From Flavobacteriales bacterium (GTDB taxonomy: Bacteria > Bacteroidota > Bacteroidia > Flavobacteriales_D > Sanyastnellaceae): 35,637 bases of DNA. How positions within the stretch are numbered: the stretch's first letter is position 1; every line of letters starts with the position of its first letter. Location of the stretch: assembly GCA_020437755.1 (NCBI GenBank), contig JAGQVX010000025.1, positions 1-35,637 of the forward strand. The letters are read 5' to 3'. This document shows, piece after piece, positions 3,103-32,187 of this stretch. The notes below the pieces were generated by a model. The model saw only the letters and a program-made list of their open reading frames with translations, was not told the origin of the DNA and made no database searches. The position numbers were made by a program, and so were the translations under genes.

Positions 3103-6100
3103 TTATCGTCTGAGATCCACAAATGTGTTGAACTGTCGGTCATCAGCCTCGAATACAATATAGTACGTGCCATCGGGCAAGTCTTCACCGCTATTGTTCT
3201 GCCCATACCATTCATTCTGATAACCATCTTTGTTGTAAACGATGTTACCCCATCGGTTGAACACAGTGAATGTATTGTCAGGGTGTTCCAAAACGCCAAG
3301 GATCACATAGAAGTCGTTGTCTCCGTCGTCGTTGGGCGAAAGTCCGGTAGGAAGCGTAATGTCATCGGGTTGTGTGAGCGTAATGACACTGTCCTTTACG
3401 CATCCATTCGCATCGGTTACCGTAATGGTATAGTCGCCTGCCGGCAAGCCGTCGGCTTCAGTTGCTCCATCTTCGATAGATGAGGGTCCAGACCATTCGA
3501 TGGTGTACTGTGGTGTGCCACCTTCGATGTTGGTTGTCAAAGAGCCGTCATTTCCTTCAAATTCTGAAACATTAAACCCATTATCGTAAAGTGGACTAGT
3601 TCCATTAATGGTTATGCTGTCAGGTTCATTCACAAAATAGTTGAACGAGTTACTACAACCCCCGGCATCCTCTATGGTGGCAATGACCTCACCGCCACAT
3701 ATGTCTTCGAGAGTATCACCTGTACCCGCTTCTTCGCCATCTATTGTCCATGAAATCACAAACGGTTCAGCAGCGTTCACAACTTGCAAGGCAATGCTAC
3801 CATTGCAATCGCCGTAGCACAACGGGTCTATCTGCGTAGGTGTCACCTCGATTGGTGGAGGACCTCCAATCTCAATTTGGAGTGTAGTTGAGCACAAGTT
3901 TTCATCAGTAACTGTTACTTCATAGGTGCCGGGACATAGATCGGTTTGATCTTCGGCATCCACAACAACACCTTGTCCAGTCCACTCATATGTGTATGTA
4001 CCAAAACCTCCTGTTACAGTTATATCGATTGACCCATCGCAAGCACCACAGCTCGCATCAATTGATGTTTCGTCGATTTGTAGTTCGTCCGGTTCATCAA
4101 TCATCCAGCATTCTTCAGCTTCACAACCGTTTGAATCAACTACGAACAAACAGTATTCGCCAGCAACAAGATCTGTTGCTTCTTCCGTTGTACTCACGTC
4201 AGGTGTCCACTCGATCGTAGTATAATCGCCACTTCCACCCGTGATATTTGCATCAATTGAACCTAAATCCCCATTGCACAAAATCGGCGTCTGCAAGTCG
4301 TTGAAATGCAATGAGTCAGGTTGAATGATTTCAAATTGTGTAATCATTTCACAACCAATACTGTCAGTGACTGAAACAGAGTAGGTACCAGCGCACAAAT
4401 CTGTTACGATAAGATCCGTAGTGTTAAGTGGATCTGACCAAATGACATCCAATGAACCTACTCCACCATCGGGTTCTATACTAATTGAACCATCACAACT
4501 TCCGTAGCAGGATACATTAACTCCTCCATTAAACATTGAAATATCCGCTGGGACCTGAATAACAGGTGGCTCAGTCAATTCAAGGAATACAGTAGTATCA
4601 CATCCGTTGGCATCAGTAATGAGAACATCGTAGATACCTGGCCCCAGATCTTCAAGCATGTTGCTTGTGGAGATAATTGTTGTATCACCGTCCACATGCC
4701 ATACATAAGTGTATTCCGGAACTCCACCGGAAGTAGTTACGTCTATCCAACCGTCCATTGCCCCAGCACAACTGATATTGAAATCACCGGGAAAGAGAGA
4801 TATATCTACATCAGCAACAAGCGGCTCGTCTGGCTCAGTTATGTCCAGACATGAAGTTGCTTCACAGCCCGATGCGTCGGTAACCGTCAAGCAGTAGCAT
4901 CCGGCTCCCAGACCGGTAAGTGTCGTGTTGTTTGATAAGAAATTGGCATCGCAATCTGCCCATTCATAGGTGAAATCAGGATCGCCTCCTTCAATAGTAG
5001 AAATAATAGAACCGTTCGTGTCACCATTACATTGTAGCGTGAACAACACACTGTCTCCTTGCACCGGAGCATTGAGAGTAACAAGGAATGGTTCGGGTTC
5101 TTCAATGGTTACGATTGCCTGTGCATTGCATCCATTAGCATCTGAAACGGTAAGTGTATACGTTCCACTTGGCAGGCCGCCTATCACATTTCCTGCATAA
5201 AGGTTGCCGTCAAGATCCACCCAATCATAGGTCAATACACCACATCCGCCTACTGCACTGACTGAAATTGAACCGTCTGAATAGCCAAAGCAACTCACCG
5301 GTTGGATGTTGTCAATGGATATTTCGATTAATTCAGGTTCACTGATAGTCCAACAAATGGTGTCGGTGCAATCATTGGTGTCCATCACATACAAGCAATA
5401 CTCACCTGGTCCCAAATCCTGAATGGTGTCAACCGCGAATGGATCGACAGTCAATCCACCACTTATCCATTCCCAGTCCTGGTAATCTCCACTTCCTCCT
5501 GAAACTTCAGGTACAATCCAACCATCATCAGCACCGAAACACGAGATATTACATCCGTTGTAGTCTGAAACATTACCTGTAGATTCAATCGGATCCGGTT
5601 CCGACATGTTAATGGTTGACGTAGCCAGACATCCATTGATGTCAGTGACGTTGACGCAATATGTCCCCGCGCCCAGTCCGGTGAGGAAGGGATCGTTGAC
5701 GTCATTGCCAAACTGGGTAACATCGTCGCAGTTGCTCCAATCGAATTCATAGCATTCAGGTGCATATGTCACGCAGTCAGGTGTTCCACCAGTCACAGAA
5801 GCACTAATAGCTCCATCCTGCTCACCATTGCAGCTAATGTTAAATCCTCCGTCAAATAAAGACACCTCTAGATCAATAATCATCACCTGAGGAGCAACTA
5901 AAGGGATCGTATCACTGATGCTACATCCAGTGCCATCAGTAACGTTTACAATATAATCGCACGCAACAAGGTTTGTAATAGTCGTTACGTTACCCGCTCC
6001 CGGGAAATTGGCGCACATTGGAATGGCGGGCCAATCAATGGTCAACAACCCTGTTCCACCGGATACTGCAATTTCAATAGATCCATCGTTTTGCCCGATA

Positions 6101-9057
6101 CAAGACGGTGCAACGATTTCTACGATTTCAAGTTCAATTTCGGGCAACTGATCAATGGTGTAGTTGAACTGTTGTTCGCAGTCTCCCTGCGTAACGGTCA
6201 AGGTATAATTCCCTGCACACAATCCGGAAATGTCTGCTGTCGAAGCAACAAACCCGTCAGGTCCTGTCCAGGAATATCCTTCTGTTCCTAGTTCGGGAAC
6301 TATTGTTACATCAATTGAGCCATCGCAGAATCCAAAACAGGTGGCATCATTCACAGTGGCATTCAAAGTGAAATCCTGATTCTCTCCAATGTTAATCACA
6401 TACTGTTCTGTGCAACCCTGTCCGTCACTAAGCTCAACCACATAATCGCCTGAGTCCAGCCCTGTGAGTACATCACCACTACAAGGACAACTTGGTCCTG
6501 AAATCCAAGTGATCGTATAGGGCCCGCCATTTCCACCACCATAGCTGTCGAGGGTGATTTCACCTTGGCCCGCATTCGGCGAGCCACATGGGTTCTGCAT
6601 AGTGGTGTAATTCAAGAATAAATCTGGAACACAGGTCAGTTCTACGATTTCGGTATGAACACAGTTATTATCATCCGTTACGGTAAGCTGGTTGCTTCCG
6701 CAAGGAACATTGGTCGGATCTTCCAGGAACGATCCCCATGGAGTATCCAGATTGTTCCACTGAATGATATACCCAGGTGAACCTCCTGAAACTGTAATAT
6801 CAATTGCTCCATCCTCTGCGTTCGGACAAGACACATTGAAACCTCCGGGATAAGTGAAGATGTTGTCTACGACAACGGTGAGAGGTTGTGCCGGTTCTCC
6901 AACAACAATAGTCACAGAATCTTCACTGATGCATCCATTGAAATCGGTCACTTGAACATAGAAAGTATCACTTGCCAATTCCAAAGCACAAGGTGCGGTA
7001 AGGTTGTCATCATGACTCCAAGCGTAGAAGTAAGGCGGACAGCCACCGGTTGAGGTTACGCAAGCAGAACCCGTTTGTTCGCCATTGCACAACACATCTA
7101 CAACCCCGTCCAATTGGATCTCAAGTGGCTCAGGTGCATTTAACGTCCAGCTGTCGGTGATAACACATCCGGCATCATCTGTAATCACAACCGTATAGGT
7201 GCCTTCGCATAAATCAAAAATATCTTCATTGGTTGACGTGAATGAGTCTGGTCCAGTCCATGAGAATTCATAAACTCCACTTCCACCTACAACGGTTATG
7301 TCAATCAAACCATCGCACATTCCCGGACAACTAATTTCCTGACAAGCAAAGTCTGCAAATGACACACTCGCAATATCTAGCGGATTTACAACCTCCACAG
7401 AAACACACTGGTCAGTGATGCTGCAGCCGGCGTCATCGGTTACGGAAACGCAGTATTCCCCTTCCGGTACGTCGGTAAGGTCTTCATTATTCGAAATCAC
7501 GTTGCCATCCGAATCAGTCCACTCAAAAATGAATGGTGGTGTTCCGTTTAGCATGGTTAGATCCACATCGCCGGTACTCGCTCCATCACAATTAATAGGG
7601 GTGACCACAAAATCGAGCAATAGAGGAGAAACAGTCACGGTTGCAGAAGCAGATTCAACGCAACTGGCAACTGATGCTGTTAAAGTGTAAATGGTGGTTA
7701 CTTCCGGACATACATCCTGAATCAATTGGTCGGCAATTAATTCACCAGCCGGATCCCAGACAATATTCACGTTGGGATCCTCCAGAGTTGTTCCGGTAAG
7801 TTGGGTGCAGTTCCCCGGACAAATCTCCGTGGGATCGGCAACAAGATCTACTGGCAGTTCATCCAGAATTCCAAAGTCAACAGAACTGTTGAATAATACG
7901 GTGTCGCAGAGCTGGTCCAGCAACTCTATAGTCACATATTCTAAACCTTCAATGAGTCCATCATCAATCGGAAAGATATTCAAATCAACCGACTGTGAAC
8001 CGGCAGGAATTGTAATGGTATAGGTGCCGTCTCCATTGTCCAACGTAGCGAGATCAGGAGATGTAGTAAAGTCTTCAGGGAATGTAGCATCTCCTGAAAG
8101 GCTGAATGATACTTCTAAATCCTGGGACTGAACATACTGACCTTCGAAAGTCACAATTCCATCATTACATCCTTCAATCATGTCGTCGATTCCGCCGGCT
8201 GTACTGGTCAACATGGTAACCGGATTCGATTCCAGTTGGCTGATAAAAACACCTGAATCATAAATACGATCCGAACCATCCGCAATAATCAGCTTCAAGT
8301 GAACCGTGTCGCATGGAACCAAGTCCCCAATTTCGGCTCGCAGACCCCGTGTGAATCCATCATACTGAGTGGAAATTCCTAGGGGATCCTGGTTGTTGTA
8401 AAAATATTCAGTGTTGCTGATGTGATTCACATTGTTGATCGCAACCGGAGTTGAGGTGCCCGGAATAAGTGCAATATTCACATCGGTTCCGATGTTGTCG
8501 GCTGTGATGAAAAATCCAAAGACGTCGTTGAACGAAGAACCTACCCACTCAAGGTATTCTTCAGATGCAAACATGAAGTCAAATTTCAAACTATCACCTT
8601 GCACAACTACATCGAATTCAAATGTGCAGGCGTCCCAGGTGGTGAGACCACCGTTTGCCAATGTCAGCAGCGGACTCCCGGGATAGAAGTTGTCATACTC
8701 GCTACAATTGACGCAGTTACCATCTCCATCGATTATTGGAAGCCCTGTCTCATCATTTGGTCCAATTGCATTCTCGGCATGACCTGTGGTGAGCAGAATC
8801 CCTTGACTTTGGCCCAGGGAATCATCCTTTAAACAATAATACCCATAGGATAATGGGTGAGCATTAACCGATACGTTGAAAATCTCAACACCATCACCAA
8901 CAAGCTGCTGTGCCATTTCGGTGATGGGCATGCCATTATCTACAATAAGGGTGTTATTGGGTTGTGCATCCAAATCACATTGTGCATGCGATATTAGGGA
9001 CGCAAACAAAAGTGAAGCACCCAATAGCGCGTACTTCAGGGTCGTTTTCATATTCAT
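3103..9057 (-). CDS. Giant SprB-like cell-surface adhesin with type B T9SS sorting domain
   Basis: A 1984-aa secreted protein. It has a signal peptide (about 1-25, ending SHAQ), then a choice-of-anchor L domain (about 30-285, with 'GILLTTGHAENAIGPND'), a Calx-beta-like segment (about 290-395) and an Ig-like segment (about 400-480). About 17 SprB-type repeats follow (about 481-1890), each built on C-x-G-x-x-D-G-S-I, a GG turn, W, then G-T-Y-x-x-x-V-T-D-x-x-G-C. The last ~83 residues are a gliding-associated type B (CHU_C) sorting domain with 'SPNDDGDND', 'FNRWGNIVY' and 'DGTYYIVF'. Such proteins are exported by T9SS and act as surface adhesins, in gliding species as mobile adhesins. The downstream SprF/PorE-like genes fit this role. 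Whether this organism glides cannot be told from the window. The length is well below that of the largest known SprB proteins. Confidence 0.95.
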   Translation of the reverse strand: MNMKTTLKYALLGASLLFASLISHAQCDLDAQPNNTLIVDNGMPITEMAQQLVGDGVEIFNVSVNAHPLSYGYYCLKDDSLGQSQGILLTTGHAENAIGPNDETGLPIIDGDGNCVNCSEYDNFYPGSPLLTLANGGLTTWDACTFEFDVVVQGDSLKFDFMFASEEYLEWVGSSFNDVFGFFITADNIGTDVNIALIPGTSTPVAINNVNHISNTEYFYNNQDPLGISTQYDGFTRGLRAEIGDLVPCDTVHLKLIIADGSDRIYDSGVFISQLESNPVTMLTSTAGGIDDMIEGCNDGIVTFEGQYVQSQDLEVSFSLSGDATFPEDFTTSPDLATLDNGDGTYTITIPAGSQSVDLNIFPIDDGLIEGLEYVTIELLDQLCDTVLFNSSVDFGILDELPVDLVADPTEICPGNCTQLTGTTLEDPNVNIVWDPAGELIADQLIQDVCPEVTTIYTLTASVASCVESASATVTVSPLLLDFVVTPINCDGASTGDVDLTMLNGTPPFIFEWTDSDGNVISNNEDLTDVPEGEYCVSVTDDAGCSITDQCVSVEVVNPLDIASVSFADFACQEISCPGMCDGLIDITVVGGSGVYEFSWTGPDSFTSTNEDIFDLCEGTYTVVITDDAGCVITDSWTLNAPEPLEIQLDGVVDVLCNGEQTGSACVTSTGGCPPYFYAWSHDDNLTAPCALELASDTFYVQVTDFNGCISEDSVTIVVGEPAQPLTVVVDNIFTYPGGFNVSCPNAEDGAIDITVSGGSPGYIIQWNNLDTPWGSFLEDPTNVPCGSNQLTVTDDNNCVHTEIVELTCVPDLFLNYTTMQNPCGSPNAGQGEITLDSYGGGNGGPYTITWISGPSCPCSGDVLTGLDSGDYVVELSDGQGCTEQYVINIGENQDFTLNATVNDATCFGFCDGSIDVTIVPELGTEGYSWTGPDGFVASTADISGLCAGNYTLTVTQGDCEQQFNYTIDQLPEIELEIVEIVAPSCIGQNDGSIEIAVSGGTGLLTIDWPAIPMCANFPGAGNVTTITNLVACDYIVNVTDGTGCSISDTIPLVAPQVMIIDLEVSLFDGGFNISCNGEQDGAISASVTGGTPDCVTYAPECYEFDWSNCDDVTQFGNDVNDPFLTGLGAGTYCVNVTDINGCLATSTINMSEPDPIESTGNVSDYNGCNISCFGADDGWIVPEVSGGSGDYQDWEWISGGLTVDPFAVDTIQDLGPGEYCLYVMDTNDCTDTICWTISEPELIEISIDNIQPVSCFGYSDGSISVSAVGGCGVLTYDWVDLDGNLYAGNVIGGLPSGTYTLTVSDANGCNAQAIVTIEEPEPFLVTLNAPVQGDSVLFTLQCNGDTNGSIISTIEGGDPDFTYEWADCDANFLSNNTTLTGLGAGCYCLTVTDASGCEATSCLDITEPDEPLVADVDISLFPGDFNISCAGAMDGWIDVTTSGGVPEYTYVWHVDGDTTIISTSNMLEDLGPGIYDVLITDANGCDTTVFLELTEPPVIQVPADISMFNGGVNVSCYGSCDGSISIEPDGGVGSLDVIWSDPLNTTDLIVTDLCAGTYSVSVTDSIGCEMITQFEIIQPDSLHFNDLQTPILCNGDLGSIDANITGGSGDYTTIEWTPDVSTTEEATDLVAGEYCLFVVDSNGCEAEECWMIDEPDELQIDETSIDASCGACDGSIDITVTGGFGTYTYEWTGQGVVVDAEDQTDLCPGTYEVTVTDENLCSTTLQIEIGGPPPIEVTPTQIDPLCYGDCNGSIALQVVNAAEPFVISWTIDGEEAGTGDTLEDICGGEVIATIEDAGGCSNSFNYFVNEPDSITINGTSPLYDNGFNVSEFEGNDGSLTTNIEGGTPQYTIEWSGPSSIEDGATEADGLPAGDYTITVTDANGCVKDSVITLTQPDDITLPTGLSPNDDGDNDFYVILGVLEHPDNTFTVFNRWGNIVYNKDGYQNEWYGQNNSGEDLPDGTYYIVFEADDRQFNTFVDLRR
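3375..7620 (-). repeat. About 17 tandem SprB-type protein repeats
   Basis: Counting the C-x-G-x-x-D-G-x-I starts and the VTDxxGC ends gives about 17 units of roughly 65-90 residues. Two sub-types are visible. One opens directly with a short lead into 'SCFG', while a longer one opens with a 'Y/F-x-G-G-F-N-I/V-S-C' header (units 4, 8, 9, 12, 13 and 17 by my count). The repeats are diverged at DNA level, so they are old protein duplications rather than a recent DNA repeat. The last unit has Glu-Phe-Glu where the first Cys is expected. Confidence 0.85.
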
Positions 9058-25843: not shown

Positions 25844-26938
25844 ATGAAGATCAAAGAAGTACTCGACTATCTGGAACATTTGGCGCCCGGATATTTGCAG
25901 GAGGATTATGATAATTCCGGACTTCTGGTGGGCGATCATCAGCAGGAGGTTACGGGGATTCTGGTGTCTCTCGATTGTATCGAATCGGTTGTGGATGAGG
26001 CTATTGAAAGGAAATGCAACGTTATTATTTCCCATCACCCCATTGTATTCAGCGGTCTCAAACGGTTTACAGGTGCCGATTACATTCAGCGAGTGATTAT
26101 CAAAGCAATCCGGAATTCCATTGCGCTGATTAGTATCCATACCAACCTCGATAATGTTCAACATGGCGTGAACAAAGTGATCTGCGATCGCTTGGGTATT
26201 TTGTCACCCAAGATTCTGAAGCCCAAAACCGGGATATTGGAAAAACTGGTGACCTATATCCCTCAGCCGCATCTTGAAGAGGTGAGAAATGCATTATTTC
26301 GGGCTGGTGCCGGCCAAATAGGCGAATATTCCGAGTGTAGCTTTAGTTCTGTAGGCCAGGGTACATTCACGCCGTCTTCCCGGGCGAATCCGTCTATCGG
26401 ACAGCGCGGCAAAAGGGAGCAGGTGGATGAGGTTCGTCTGGAAGTTCTCGTTGAAAAGTGGAAAAGGCAATCGATTTTGCAGGCGCTGATGGAGAGTCAT
26501 CCCTATGAAGAGGTAGCCTGGGAAGTATATCCTATTGTCAATGCCCATCCACAGGTAGGTTCCGGAATGATTGGAGAACTTGCAGGTGAGGAGAATGAGG
26601 AGGCATTCGCCAAATGGGTAAAAGATCGCATGAAGGTTTCGGCGGTCAAGCACACGGCATTTTTGAATCGTAAAGTCAGGAAAGTCGCTGTATGTGGGGG
26701 TTCCGGAAGTTTTCTTTTGGCGGATGCCATAAAAGCCGGCGCCGATGTATTCATATCTTCCGATTTCAAGTACCACCAGTATTTTGATGCCGATGGGCGT
26801 ATTGTGATTCTGGATATTGGGCACTATGAAAGCGAGCAATTTACCTCTGAATATCTAATGGTCAGCCTCACAGAAAAATTTCCTAATTTTGCCGTCCATT
26901 TATCCCAAATCAGGACCAATCCGATAAATTTCATTTGA
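25844..26938 (+). CDS. Nif3-like dinuclear metal centre protein
   Basis: A 364-aa member of the Nif3/YbgI family (often labelled GTP cyclohydrolase 1 type 2-like; the true reaction is unsettled). Metal ligands are visible in 'ISHHPIVF', 'SIHTNLD' and the C-terminal 'DIGHYESE'. Between the two halves (about 130-250) is the extra domain seen in long-form bacterial members, with 'RNALFRAGAGQIGEYSECSF' and 'SHPYEEVAWEVYPI'. Length fits the long form. It diverges from lpxK with 39 bp between starts and precedes the coiled-coil protein by 1 bp, a pairing common in Bacteroidota. Confidence 0.94.
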   Translation: MKIKEVLDYLEHLAPGYLQEDYDNSGLLVGDHQQEVTGILVSLDCIESVVDEAIERKCNVIISHHPIVFSGLKRFTGADYIQRVIIKAIRNSIALISIHTNLDNVQHGVNKVICDRLGILSPKILKPKTGILEKLVTYIPQPHLEEVRNALFRAGAGQIGEYSECSFSSVGQGTFTPSSRANPSIGQRGKREQVDEVRLEVLVEKWKRQSILQALMESHPYEEVAWEVYPIVNAHPQVGSGMIGELAGEENEEAFAKWVKDRMKVSAVKHTAFLNRKVRKVAVCGGSGSFLLADAIKAGADVFISSDFKYHQYFDADGRIVILDIGHYESEQFTSEYLMVSLTEKFPNFAVHLSQIRTNPINFI

Positions 26939-26939
26939 A

Positions 26940-27728
26940 ATGAGTAATAAAGTTGCAAAATCGCCGGAAGAGAAACTTCGGGCACTCTATGACCTTCAGG
27001 TGATCGATTCTATGATCGATAAAATGCGCATCGTAAGGGGTGAGCTTCCTCTTGAAGTGCAGGATCTGGAAGATGAAATCGAAGGACTGGAAACGCGTCT
27101 TGGAAATCTTCAAGCGGAAGTGGAGAAGATTGATGACGAAATCAACGGAAAGAAGAACACCATTCAGGATGCTTTGGGCCTCATCAAGAAATATGAGGAG
27201 CAGCAAAACAACGTTCGAAACAACCGTGAATTCGATTCGCTGAATAAGGAGATCGAGTATCAGGGATTGGAGATTCAGTTGTGCGAAAAGAAAATTAAGG
27301 AGTTCCAGTTTCAGCGCGAGCAGAAAATGGAGGTGATAGACGCAAGCCAGGAACGACTCAACGAGCGTAAAGGTGACCTCGATTCAAAGAAATCCGAGTT
27401 GAAGGAAATCGTTGCCGAAACGGAGAAGGAAGAACAAATCCTCGCCCGTATGTCGGAAGAATACTCGAAGGAAATCGATGAGCGTTTGTTCGCTGCTTAT
27501 AGTCGTATCCGTGGTGCTGCCAAAAATGGTATGGCCGTGGTTCCTATCGATCGTGAAGCATCGGCCGGTTCATTCATTAAGATCCCGCCTCAGAAGCAAT
27601 TGGACGTTGCAGCCCGCAAGAAGATCATTGTTGATGAGCACAGCGGACGTATTTTGGTTGATATGGAACTCGCTACAGAGGAGCGTGCCAAAATCGAAGA
27701 GTTGATTCAGAAAGAATTGCAGGGTTAA
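26940..27728 (+). CDS. Coiled-coil C4-zinc-ribbon family protein lacking all zinc cysteines
   Basis: A 262-aa protein. Residues about 10-185 form a long coiled coil; about 195-262 match the C-terminal domain of the zf-RING_7/CdsZ-like family, with 'GMAVVPI' before and 'IPPQKQLDVAARKKIIV' inside. In the family as I know it, two C-x-x-C pairs bind zinc. Here the positions are Ser208/Ser211 (S-A-G-S) and Asp232/Ser235 (D-E-H-S), so no zinc ligand pair remains, while the surrounding residues are well kept. The reading frame is intact. Family members are thought to act in RNA/protein or secretion-related contexts; I assign no function. It is 1 bp downstream of the Nif3 gene and followed by a strong terminator. 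Confidence 0.9.
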   Translation: MSNKVAKSPEEKLRALYDLQVIDSMIDKMRIVRGELPLEVQDLEDEIEGLETRLGNLQAEVEKIDDEINGKKNTIQDALGLIKKYEEQQNNVRNNREFDSLNKEIEYQGLEIQLCEKKIKEFQFQREQKMEVIDASQERLNERKGDLDSKKSELKEIVAETEKEEQILARMSEEYSKEIDERLFAAYSRIRGAAKNGMAVVPIDREASAGSFIKIPPQKQLDVAARKKIIVDEHSGRILVDMELATEERAKIEELIQKELQG

Positions 27729-29293: not shown

Positions 29294-30613
29294 TTATCTT
29301 CCTCCTCGTGATGATCTGGAAGAATTGCTGCTACCCGAACGTGAATTCCCGCTGCTTCGCGAGCCGCCCGAAGAGCGGCTGCCACTGTTGGAAGAATTGT
29401 TTCGTCCGGAATTCCAGGAGTCGTTGCTTCTTGAGTTCCCGGAGTTTCGATTCGTGTCGGGCATTTTGAAACGGTCGCGATCGTTATTGTTGCGCTGTTG
29501 CTGATAACCGTCATTGCCCGAGTTGTTGCGTTGATTATTGTAGTTGGGGCGTTGATTGTTGTTTTGCGCCGGATTTCGATCGCGCGATGTATTGTTATTG
29601 CGGCTATCTCGTTCACGGAAATAGTCATCCTGCGTGTTTACCGGATCGTTCAATCGGCTAGGGTTGTTCTGACTCGGTGCTTTCCAGTTGTAGTCGGAAG
29701 TAGACTGGGGCTTCGGAGAAGCGGGAGCTACCTCATTTGCCGGATGGCGCTCTACCTGGTTCGAAGCCAGAACATCAGATGATGAAACAAGCGCTTGTGG
29801 GCGAGCGGGCTTGCTGACACGCTCAGCGGTTACGTCTTGATGGATGTGTTCCACCTGACCAGCCTGGTCGGGTCTTGAGCCTGAATTGTCTTGCGCTATC
29901 ACATCCGAAGTGCGTTCACGGTGATCCTGGAGCAGAACATCTCCTGTATAGTTGGAGTTGATGATAGAGCCGCTGCCAATTGGAGTGCGGTGACCAACCT
30001 GTGCGTAGCCGCCGTATCCGTAGTCATAGAAACCAGGGTTTCCATACCCGTATCCGTATCCATATCCGTAACCATAGCCATAGCCGTACGGACTATAACC
30101 ATATGGGTAATACCATGGATTGTAGTTGTAGCAAAAGGGATCGTACCAGGGGTCATACCCCCAGTTGGAACACCATGGGTTGTAGAAGGCAGAGTATCCG
30201 TAATTGTAGTTGAATGGATAGTAGTAGTTGTACCCCCAGTTGTACGACATGGACCAGCCCCAGTAGCTGTTGTAGCTCAATGACCAGCCCGGACGGCGAG
30301 TGTAATAAGGGCGGTAAGGATACCCACCGTACGCATTGCCGTAGTAGTTGTTGGTAACGTAGGTGTCACCACCATCGTTGTAATAATCATCCTGGTAATC
30401 GTCCTGATAATTGTACTGGTCTGAGTAGTAATCGTCCTGTTCCTGATCTTCAGTCTCCACATGAGAGGAGCTGAGGTCATATTCTTCAGGATCGCTGGAA
30501 ACCCGGTAGATGTCGTCTTGTTCCAGATTATCATTATAGGCATATTTGCCAACATTGCAGGATGTAAGTAGAGCAGCAATGCAGATCGAAGCTAGAATGG
30601 ATACGTTTTTCAT
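29294..30613 (-). CDS. Tyr/Asn/Gly-rich low-complexity lipoprotein
   Basis: A predicted lipoprotein of 439 aa from the ATG at 30613, which gives the natural MKN start (an in-frame ATG at 30619 would add two residues). Lipobox LTSC puts the acylated Cys at 19. Residues about 35-95 are Asp/Gln/Tyr-rich, and about 95-215 are dominated by Tyr, Trp, Asn, Pro and Gly, including a run of alternating Tyr-Gly. A mixed region of about 215-330 follows, and the last ~110 residues are Asn/Arg/Ser/Gly-rich, ending in a basic SR/RGG-like tail. No enzymatic domain is visible. Composition suggests a disordered, possibly adhesive or condensate-forming surface protein, but this is speculation. A consensus -7 box lies 39 bp upstream. 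Confidence 0.85.
   Translation of the reverse strand: MKNVSILASICIAALLTSCNVGKYAYNDNLEQDDIYRVSSDPEEYDLSSSHVETEDQEQDDYYSDQYNYQDDYQDDYYNDGGDTYVTNNYYGNAYGGYPYRPYYTRRPGWSLSYNSYWGWSMSYNWGYNYYYPFNYNYGYSAFYNPWCSNWGYDPWYDPFCYNYNPWYYPYGYSPYGYGYGYGYGYGYGYGNPGFYDYGYGGYAQVGHRTPIGSGSIINSNYTGDVLLQDHRERTSDVIAQDNSGSRPDQAGQVEHIHQDVTAERVSKPARPQALVSSSDVLASNQVERHPANEVAPASPKPQSTSDYNWKAPSQNNPSRLNDPVNTQDDYFRERDSRNNNTSRDRNPAQNNNQRPNYNNQRNNSGNDGYQQQRNNNDRDRFKMPDTNRNSGNSRSNDSWNSGRNNSSNSGSRSSGGSRSSGNSRSGSSNSSRSSRGGR
30030..30098 (-). repeat. Hexanucleotide-type repeat coding Tyr-Gly dipeptides
   Basis: Within the Tyr-rich lipoprotein, successive near-identical hexamers (TAYGGN on the coding strand) encode about eight alternating Tyr-Gly pairs. 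Third-base variation shows it is not perfectly homogenised, but the tract could expand or contract by slippage without frameshift. Confidence 0.8.
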
Positions 30614-30651
30614 GACCATGAGGTTTTTTGCGCCAATTGAGGTCTTTCCTT

Positions 30652-30717: not shown

Positions 30718-32187
30718 ATGGCTTCAAAACTCACTCCACGCAGTACAGATTATTCGAAATGGTACAATGAATTGGTAGTAAATGCCGATCTCGCTCAGCA
30801 CTCTGATGTTAAGGGGTGTATGATCATCAAACCTTATGGTTATGCCATTTGGGAGAAGATGAAAGACCAACTCGACCGCATGTTCAAGGAAACCGGGCAT
30901 CAGAACGCCTACTTTCCATTATTCATTCCAAAGTCTTACCTCAGCAAGGAAGCAGATCACGTAGAGGGATTTGCCAAGGAGTGTGCGGTGGTGACGCACT
31001 ATCGTTTAAAGACGAGCGAAGATGGGGGTGTGGTTGTTGATCCGGATGCCAAGTTGGAAGAGGAGTTGATTGTTCGTCCTACCTCCGAAACCATTATTTG
31101 GAATACCTATAAAGGGTGGATCCAGTCGTACCGCGATCTTCCGATTCTGGTGAATCAGTGGGCCAATGTCGTGCGATGGGAGATGCGTACCCGCTTGTTT
31201 CTCAGAACCACAGAGTTCTTGTGGCAAGAAGGTCATACGGCTCATGCAACAAAGGAGGAGGCTATTGAAGAAACGCACAAGATGCTTGATGTGTATGCCG
31301 AGTTTGCTGAGAAGTACATGGCTATTCCGGTAATCAAAGGGGTGAAGACGGCAAGTGAGCGTTTTGCCGGAGCGGTGGATACATTGTGCATTGAAGCTAT
31401 GATGCAGGATGGGAAGGCGCTACAGGCAGGAACCAGTCACTTCCTGGGGCAGAACTTCGCGAAAGCTTTTGATGTGAAGTTTGCCGGTAAAGATGGTGGA
31501 ATGGATTACGTGTGGGCAACCTCATGGGGCGTTTCAACCCGATTAATGGGAGCATTAATCATGACCCATAGCGACGATCAAGGTTTGCGACTGCCACCGA
31601 GTCTGGCTCCAATTCACGTGGCGATTGTGCCTATATATAAAGGTGAAGAACAATTGGAAGAGATTCGTGAGAAACTGGATGGCTTAATCCAATCGTTGCG
31701 TGCGGCAGGGTTGGTAGTGAAGTTTGACGACGACGACACCAAGAAACCGGGATGGAAGTTTGCCGAGTACGAGTTAAAAGGTGTGCCTGTGCGTTTGGCA
31801 GTTGGTCAGCGCGATTTGAGCAACAACATGATTGAAGTAGCGCGCAGAGATACCGGTGAAAAGGTTATGGTTTCCATGGATGAGGCTGCCGGACAGGTGC
31901 AACGCATATTGGATGAAATCCAGAAGAACCTTTTTGATGATGCATTTGCGCACCGGGCGGCCAATAGCCGAAAGGTGGAGAGTTATGCGGAATTCAAAGA
32001 GGAGATTGAGAAGGGCGGCTTTTTGTACGCGCACTGGGATGGTACGGCCGAAACGGAGGCGAAGATTAAAGAAGATACCAAAGCTACCATTCGGTGTATA
32101 CCTATTGATGGAGAGCAGGAGGAAGGCAAGTGCATGGTGACCGGAAATCCGTCGAGTCAAAGGGTTATATTTGCCAGAGCATACTAA
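30718..32187 (+). CDS. proS: Prolyl-tRNA synthetase (type 3, archaeal/eukaryote-like)
   Basis: A 489-aa cytoplasmic class II synthetase charging tRNA-Pro. Motif 2 is seen in '[25 protein letters not shown]' and motif 3 in '[25 protein letters not shown]'. The anticodon-binding domain starts near '[11 protein letters not shown]', and the C-terminal zinc-like domain ends in the typical Tyr ('QRVIFARAY'). There is no editing insertion, which fits the type 3 form used by many Bacteroidota. The frame is open from 30628, but the ATG at 30718 ('[18 protein letters not shown]') is where family similarity begins, so I chose it. The next gene starts 6 bp after the stop. Confidence 0.96.

Follow-up and report, generated by a model that had tools for sequence, protein, structure and literature searches.

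A CdsZ/FlgZ-type protein of Flavobacteriales that lacks the four cysteines of its C-terminal zinc ribbon

What becomes of a zinc ribbon whose four predicted zinc ligands have all been replaced? The question is raised by an ORF in a 35,637-nucleotide stretch of DNA from a Flavobacteriales bacterium (hereafter the window), which an earlier note had described as coding for a zinc-ribbon protein with both C-x-x-C pairs replaced in an intact frame. The coordinates of the ORF, the length of its product (262 aa) and the motifs S-A-G-S (residues 208-211) and D-E-H-S (residues 232-235) were all confirmed. A nif3/DUF34 gene lies directly upstream. The window also carries a 1984-aa ORF (3103-9057, minus strand), a 441-aa ORF (29294-30619, minus strand) whose product abounds in Tyr, Gly, Asn and Ser, with no Pfam match at E≤0.001, and a prolyl-tRNA synthetase gene (30718-32187, plus strand). 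The C-terminal domain of this synthetase lacks three cysteines of the Thermus enzyme 1h4q (those of HCG and ACE, and the second C of CVRC) and keeps one; the cysteines matching those of 1h4q are presumably zinc ligands.

Table 1. Coordinates of the ORF, of the elements of its product and of the upstream gene in the window
Feature	Position	Strand	Remark
DUF164/COG1579 homologue (CdsZ/FlgZ type), 262 aa	26940..27728	+	long coiled-coil hairpin and C-terminal ribbon without any of the four zinc cysteines
coiled-coil hairpin, residues ~9-193 (helices 9-89, 95-178, 181-193)	26964..27518	+	secondary structure of model
ribbon, residues 200-241 (strands 200-204, 238-240; helix 217-225)	27537..27662	+	model
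first former knuckle S208-A-G-S211 (CxxC in C4 relatives)	27561..27572	+	alignment
second former knuckle D232-E-H-S235 (CExC in C4 relatives)	27633..27644	+	alignment
C-terminal helix, residues 242-262 (helix 242-261 in model)	27663..27725	+	longer than in most same-order C4 members
nif3/DUF34 gene, upstream	25844..26938	+	PF01784 E 3.7e-79; TIGR00486 above its cut-off

Homology to PF02591/COG1579 extends over the ribbon and over the whole length of the protein. The window protein scored 28.8 bits with PF02591, just short of the cut-off of 29.1, and in the genome search the score was 31.5 bits, which is above the cut-off, so the ribbon is still recognised. With NF047363, the CdsZ equivalog, it scored 71.9 bits and falls below the curated cut-off of 275, but CdsZ is still the nearest NCBIfam. 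The nearest solved structures by sequence were CT398/CdsZ (4ilo, E 1.1e-13) and HP0958/FlgZ (3na7, E 1e-07). The AlphaFold model of the window protein (mean pLDDT 89.3) preserved the elements of the ribbon, and its block means lay at 79-89 between residues 201 and 260. In a Foldseek search with this model the only matches at E≤0.001 were 4ilo (E 1.6e-09), 3na7 (E 4.3e-09), 5y06 and 5y05; the architecture of the family, a coiled-coil hairpin followed by a C-terminal ribbon, was found both in the model and in its matches to 4ilo, 3na7 and 5y06. A model of a C4 relative from Pedobacter (L060), built on a smaller alignment, gave block means of 65-78 over ribbon residues 191-240; because the alignments differ, the gap between the two models does not demonstrate that one ribbon is more stable than the other. 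It is likely that the ORF is an orthologue of the CdsZ/FlgZ family and that its C-terminal ribbon would now be metal-free.

When the window protein was aligned to C4 relatives, to which it is 48-59% identical, S208, S211, D232 and S235 fell exactly on the four cysteine columns, and none of the four cysteines of the CXXC-X18-26-CXXC motif of C4 zinc ribbons (in the zf-RING_7 sense) is present. Judged from these missing ligands, the ribbon would hold no metal. The alignment with zf-RING_7/CdsZ homologues had been proposed in the earlier note as a check, and it also revealed that the replacements are shared across the protein's own family (f1): all 50 copies fetched from the 106 family genomes with a match are cysteine-less (45 SSDS and 5 STDS in the four columns). 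The change is thus lineage-wide within that family, as the note had envisaged, and a sequencing error at the four codons is ruled out by these 50/50 copies. The gene has no second copy in its own genome (one match at E≤10, and a single place above the PF02591 cut-off). As no C4 zinc-binding paralogue was found there, the protein is not the C-minus twin of a zinc-binding copy.

The extent of the loss was then followed through 249 aligned loci, taken from 190 genomes and 59 named records, some of which duplicate genomes. Homologues were present in 106/114 genomes of the family (50/50 of those ≥90% complete and ≤5% contaminated), and in 118/120 order, 118/119 class and 118/118 phylum genomes. In the four columns, 117 loci read CCCC, 112 are flavobacterial and cysteine-less or SSSC, and 20 depart in other ways. 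Within the order, every fetched copy of families f3 (6/6), f4 (4/4), f6 (1/1), f11 (1/1) and f12 (5/5) is cysteine-less as well, and 25 of the 92 fetched order copies keep CCCC, being all those of six other families (f2, f5, f7, f8, f9 and f10). Since six of the 12 sampled order families keep C4, zinc is not generally dispensable in the clade. Outside the order, cysteine-less copies make up all of those from f62 (5/5) and f31 (2/2), and f16 contributed three of them together with L185 (genus g131), which reads S-G-G-S and S-E-H-C and, with its fourth cysteine kept, is a partly converted relative. Among the named records, the cysteine-less ones are labelled Flavobacteriales, Cryomorphaceae, Crocinitomicaceae, Flavobacteriaceae and Bergeyella, and the C4 ones Bacteroidales, Sphingobacteriaceae/Pedobacter, Phocaeicola and Flavipsychrobacter.

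Did the flavobacterial cysteines disappear once? In a 120-row tree (LG+G4, ribbon motif columns removed, nif3 added), 33 cysteine-less flavobacterial rows fell on one branch (SH-aLRT 88, not starred), with two f12 rows and L185 outside it; this tree requires 6 changes, of which starred branches force at least 5. In a free tree of 55 hand-chosen rows under a richer model the flavobacterial rows were scattered, with 11 changes, 4 of them forced by starred branches. When 23 cysteine-less flavobacterial rows were held together, the log-likelihood was 63.6 units better than that of the free quick tree (p-AU 0.981). L151 (CCCC, a fragment of 111 aa) and L225 (SSDS, interrupted by runs of N) were dropped from the trees and from the conservation counts, and the divergent C4 rows L168, L193, L195, L200, L202, L205, L206 and L208 from the trees. 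A single origin of the flavobacterial loss is compatible with these results and is the simplest reading, though two genes cannot decide the matter.

Zinc sites have also been lost elsewhere in the phylum. In family f26, L143 reads A-E-G-C and D-E-H-S, whereas L234 and L235, from another genus, are CCCC. All copies of f77 (3/3) and f79 (9/9) have D at position 232 and S at 235 (D-E-N-S, once D-E-S-S), and by manual count their loop after the first knuckle is two residues shorter. In f69, f74, f81, f85 and f87 (7/7) the third cysteine is kept and the fourth is T or S. The D232/S235 pair therefore recurs in groups that the trees separate from flavobacteria. Adding L143 to the flavobacterial clade gave a tree 28.0 log units worse than the free tree (p-AU 0.209, not formally rejected) and, on the summed values, 91.6 log units below the tree that holds the flavobacterial rows alone. 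We treat L143 as separate because its f26 mates are C4 and its first knuckle differs, although the AU test did not reject the grouping. Within the limits of the trees, the losses elsewhere in the phylum are separate from the flavobacterial one; the second knuckle has become D-E-x-S-G in at least two lineages, and probably in three.

The earlier note had taken the intact frame and conserved neighbouring residues to indicate a functional, metal-free ribbon rather than a decaying gene, and had proposed dN/dS on the ribbon as a check. Estimated from 15 independent pairs of closely related cysteine-less copies, dN/dS was 0.106 in the coil, 0.035 in the ribbon and 0.025 in the knuckles, and the four former cysteine sites showed no non-synonymous against 21 synonymous changes. 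A looser, earlier set of 21 pairs, some of them distant or near saturation, gave 0.141 for the coil, 0.048 for the ribbon and 1 non-synonymous against 33 synonymous changes at the four sites. The C4 group gave 0.057 for the coil and 0.024 for the ribbon, from 3 usable pairs, which are too few for a contrast with the cysteine-less group. No match of the family genome search contained a stop codon. Purifying selection on the ribbon is hence stronger than on the coil, and the functional part of the note's reading is borne out; the metal-free part would follow from the missing ligands. The note had also named intact C-x-x-C pairs in close relatives, combined with relaxed selection, as evidence against its reading: such pairs do exist within the order, but relaxed selection was not seen.

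Eight ribbon residues (R205, G210, P216, Q218, R226, E233, G236 and D241) are invariant in the 111 flavobacterial cysteine-less rows, and the IPPQ, KKII and GRI segments around the knuckles are the same as in C4 relatives. Two of the invariant residues are less constant among the 116 C4 rows, of which 52 have R at position 226 and 85 have D at 241. At position 224, A is found in 100/111 flavobacterial rows, and 82/116 C4 rows have R or K there. R226, D241 and A224 look as if they had been fixed together with the loss of zinc. In the 17 cysteine-less rows of the order that lie outside the protein's own family, the C-terminal tail is 20-23 residues long; in the 25 C4 rows of the order its median length is 6 (range 3-27). 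Tails of up to 39 residues occur in C4 rows from outside the order, and the C4 row L095 carries a long basic one, so that tail length is a weak correlate of cysteine loss.

At the level of sequence we conclude that: i) the four ligands are replaced, ii) the replacements are conserved, iii) the ribbon is under strong purifying selection, and iv) the genome holds no zinc-binding paralogue. How the protein does without its ligands may then be pictured as follows. The ribbon would keep its old fold, a D-E-x-S-G turn taking over from zinc in holding the second knuckle; R226, D241 and A224 would help the metal-free fold, and the longer C-terminal helix perhaps does so too. The protein would still act as a rod-shaped adaptor or chaperone, its ribbon docking on a protein or nucleic-acid partner, and zinc would have been a stabiliser of the fold, not an active part. 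By analogy with FlgZ, a role as adaptor or chaperone is the likeliest function. On balance we lean towards the view that loss of the zinc site is a repeatable route with a preferred solution, in which C-E-x-C becomes D-E-x-S-G in flavobacteria, in one f26 genus and in f77/f79, with R226, D241 and A224 fixed alongside in flavobacteria. This would amount to a convergent, sequence-encoded substitute for structural zinc.

A change of function offers a possible, if rather doubtful, alternative: zinc would have been lost because an ancestral partner such as RpoN was dropped, and the ribbon would now do something else. Pereira et al. suggest a zinc-free new function for homologues with decayed CXXC motifs (PMC3372290), and according to the same source single C-to-S changes in Helicobacter pylori FlgZ, which protects RpoN from turnover, cost that protection, C223S affecting stability as well. 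Zinc therefore matters in H. pylori, and the flavobacterial role could have shifted. RpoN, however, is encoded in the window's own genome and in 120/120 order genomes, whatever their ribbon type, so that its loss is ruled out as the cause. The segments IPPQ, KKII and GRI, unchanged from C4 relatives, argue in the same direction, and so does the neighbourhood of the gene, which is much alike across ribbon types: nif3 adjoins it in 86/112 flavobacterial, 94/117 C4 and 17/20 other copies (5 and 3 copies having too little upstream DNA). Nif3/DUF34 has been proposed to be a metal chaperone or insertase (PMC8469502). Given that adjacency is similar without a zinc site, zinc loading of the ribbon cannot be the sole reason for the linkage.

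Of the 14 flavobacterial copies in which nif3 lies at a greater distance, most are N-terminally extended, and in the cases inspected the open frame of extended copies starts near the nif3 end. An open frame of >500 aa was found in 25/106 matching family genomes (G099, with a frame through N, was left out). All 13 long-frame copies fetched (L024, L025, L027, L212-L218 and L221-L223, all f1; genera g3, g6, g8, g9, g10, g11, g12 and g19) carry an in-frame Lys/Ala/Pro/Val-rich N-terminal extension of 218-376 residues with 19-30% Lys. It is reminiscent of histone H1-like tails and is absent from the window protein. Found in eight of the family's genera, the extension might be a sign of contact with nucleic acids, and would fit a changed function.

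An economy of zinc, by which the lineage would drop the metal from its ribbon proteins in general as in C-minus ribosomal proteins, seems unlikely. In many bacteria the C-minus forms of L31 and L36 belong to paralogue pairs under zinc control. The sole L31 of the window's own genome has no cysteine, its sole L36 has one, and the prolyl-tRNA synthetase described above is without three of the four Thermus cysteines, all of which would be expected from such an economy. But of 30 genomes searched 29 had an L36 match, and in all 29, among them genomes with a C4 ribbon, L36 has at most one cysteine; it thus does not track the loss in the DUF164 gene, which moreover has no zinc-binding paralogue to alternate with. 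The rows of the L31/L36 survey are L254, L255 and L256-L283.

Binding of another metal through D232, H234 and the serines is very improbable. D232 and H234 are each conserved in 110/111 flavobacterial rows, but H234 is also the commonest residue in C4 relatives (72/116), position 234 is N or S in the separate f77/f79 lineage, and serine is a poor ligand for structural zinc. Decay, in which a ribbon that had lost its function would be left to drift, might be suggested by the absence of all four ligands and the Pfam score just under the cut-off; it is contradicted by a ribbon dN/dS three-fold under that of the coil, by the eight invariant columns and by the absence of stops from the family matches, and we give it almost no credence.

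Substitution of zinc by a conserved cysteine-free stretch, the reading that we prefer, has a precedent in part. The core finding, a cysteine-less ribbon in Flavobacteria, is already known: Pereira et al. (2011, PMC3372290) reported that DUF164 proteins of Flavobacteria generally read SXXS-X20-DXXS, that at least one cysteine is missing from 43 of the 349 DUF164 proteins, and likewise named Actinobacteria. Their Flavobacteria proteins and the window protein share lineage and motif, with no difference in the latter. The sections of that paper drawn on here hold no selection analysis, no placement of the loss on a family tree and no other D-E-x-S lineages. Searches of the open-licence literature found neither a later study of the flavobacterial form nor papers on zinc-independent or convergent ribbons. 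New here are the fit to a single origin, the recurrent losses, the recurrence of D-E-x-S-G and the fixation of R226, D241 and A224; of these, the recurrence of the D-E-x-S-G knuckle most merits further study.

Compared with the characterized members, the window protein shares the coiled-coil hairpin and C-terminal ribbon with H. pylori FlgZ (HP0958, 3na7) and Chlamydia trachomatis CdsZ (CT398, 4ilo), but both of these are C4 ribbons and it has none of the four cysteines. As for the window gene, a nif3-type gene lies upstream of H. pylori flgZ (PMC3372290). The fold is also that of MSMEG_4306 of Mycobacterium smegmatis (5y06, 5y05), in whose crystal zinc is held by two CXXC motifs (PMC5947703), both missing from the window protein. 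The family thus offers a natural, well-sampled case in which a structural zinc site was lost as a set, with a conserved cysteine-free stretch instead; the C4 sister families in the same order and the SSSC relative L185 make a mutational test of the zinc-compensating residues possible. The C-minus forms of L31 and L36, both seen in the window's own genome, are likewise zinc-ribbon-type proteins without the full set of cysteines; unlike the paired forms of many bacteria, the DUF164 gene is a single orthologue.
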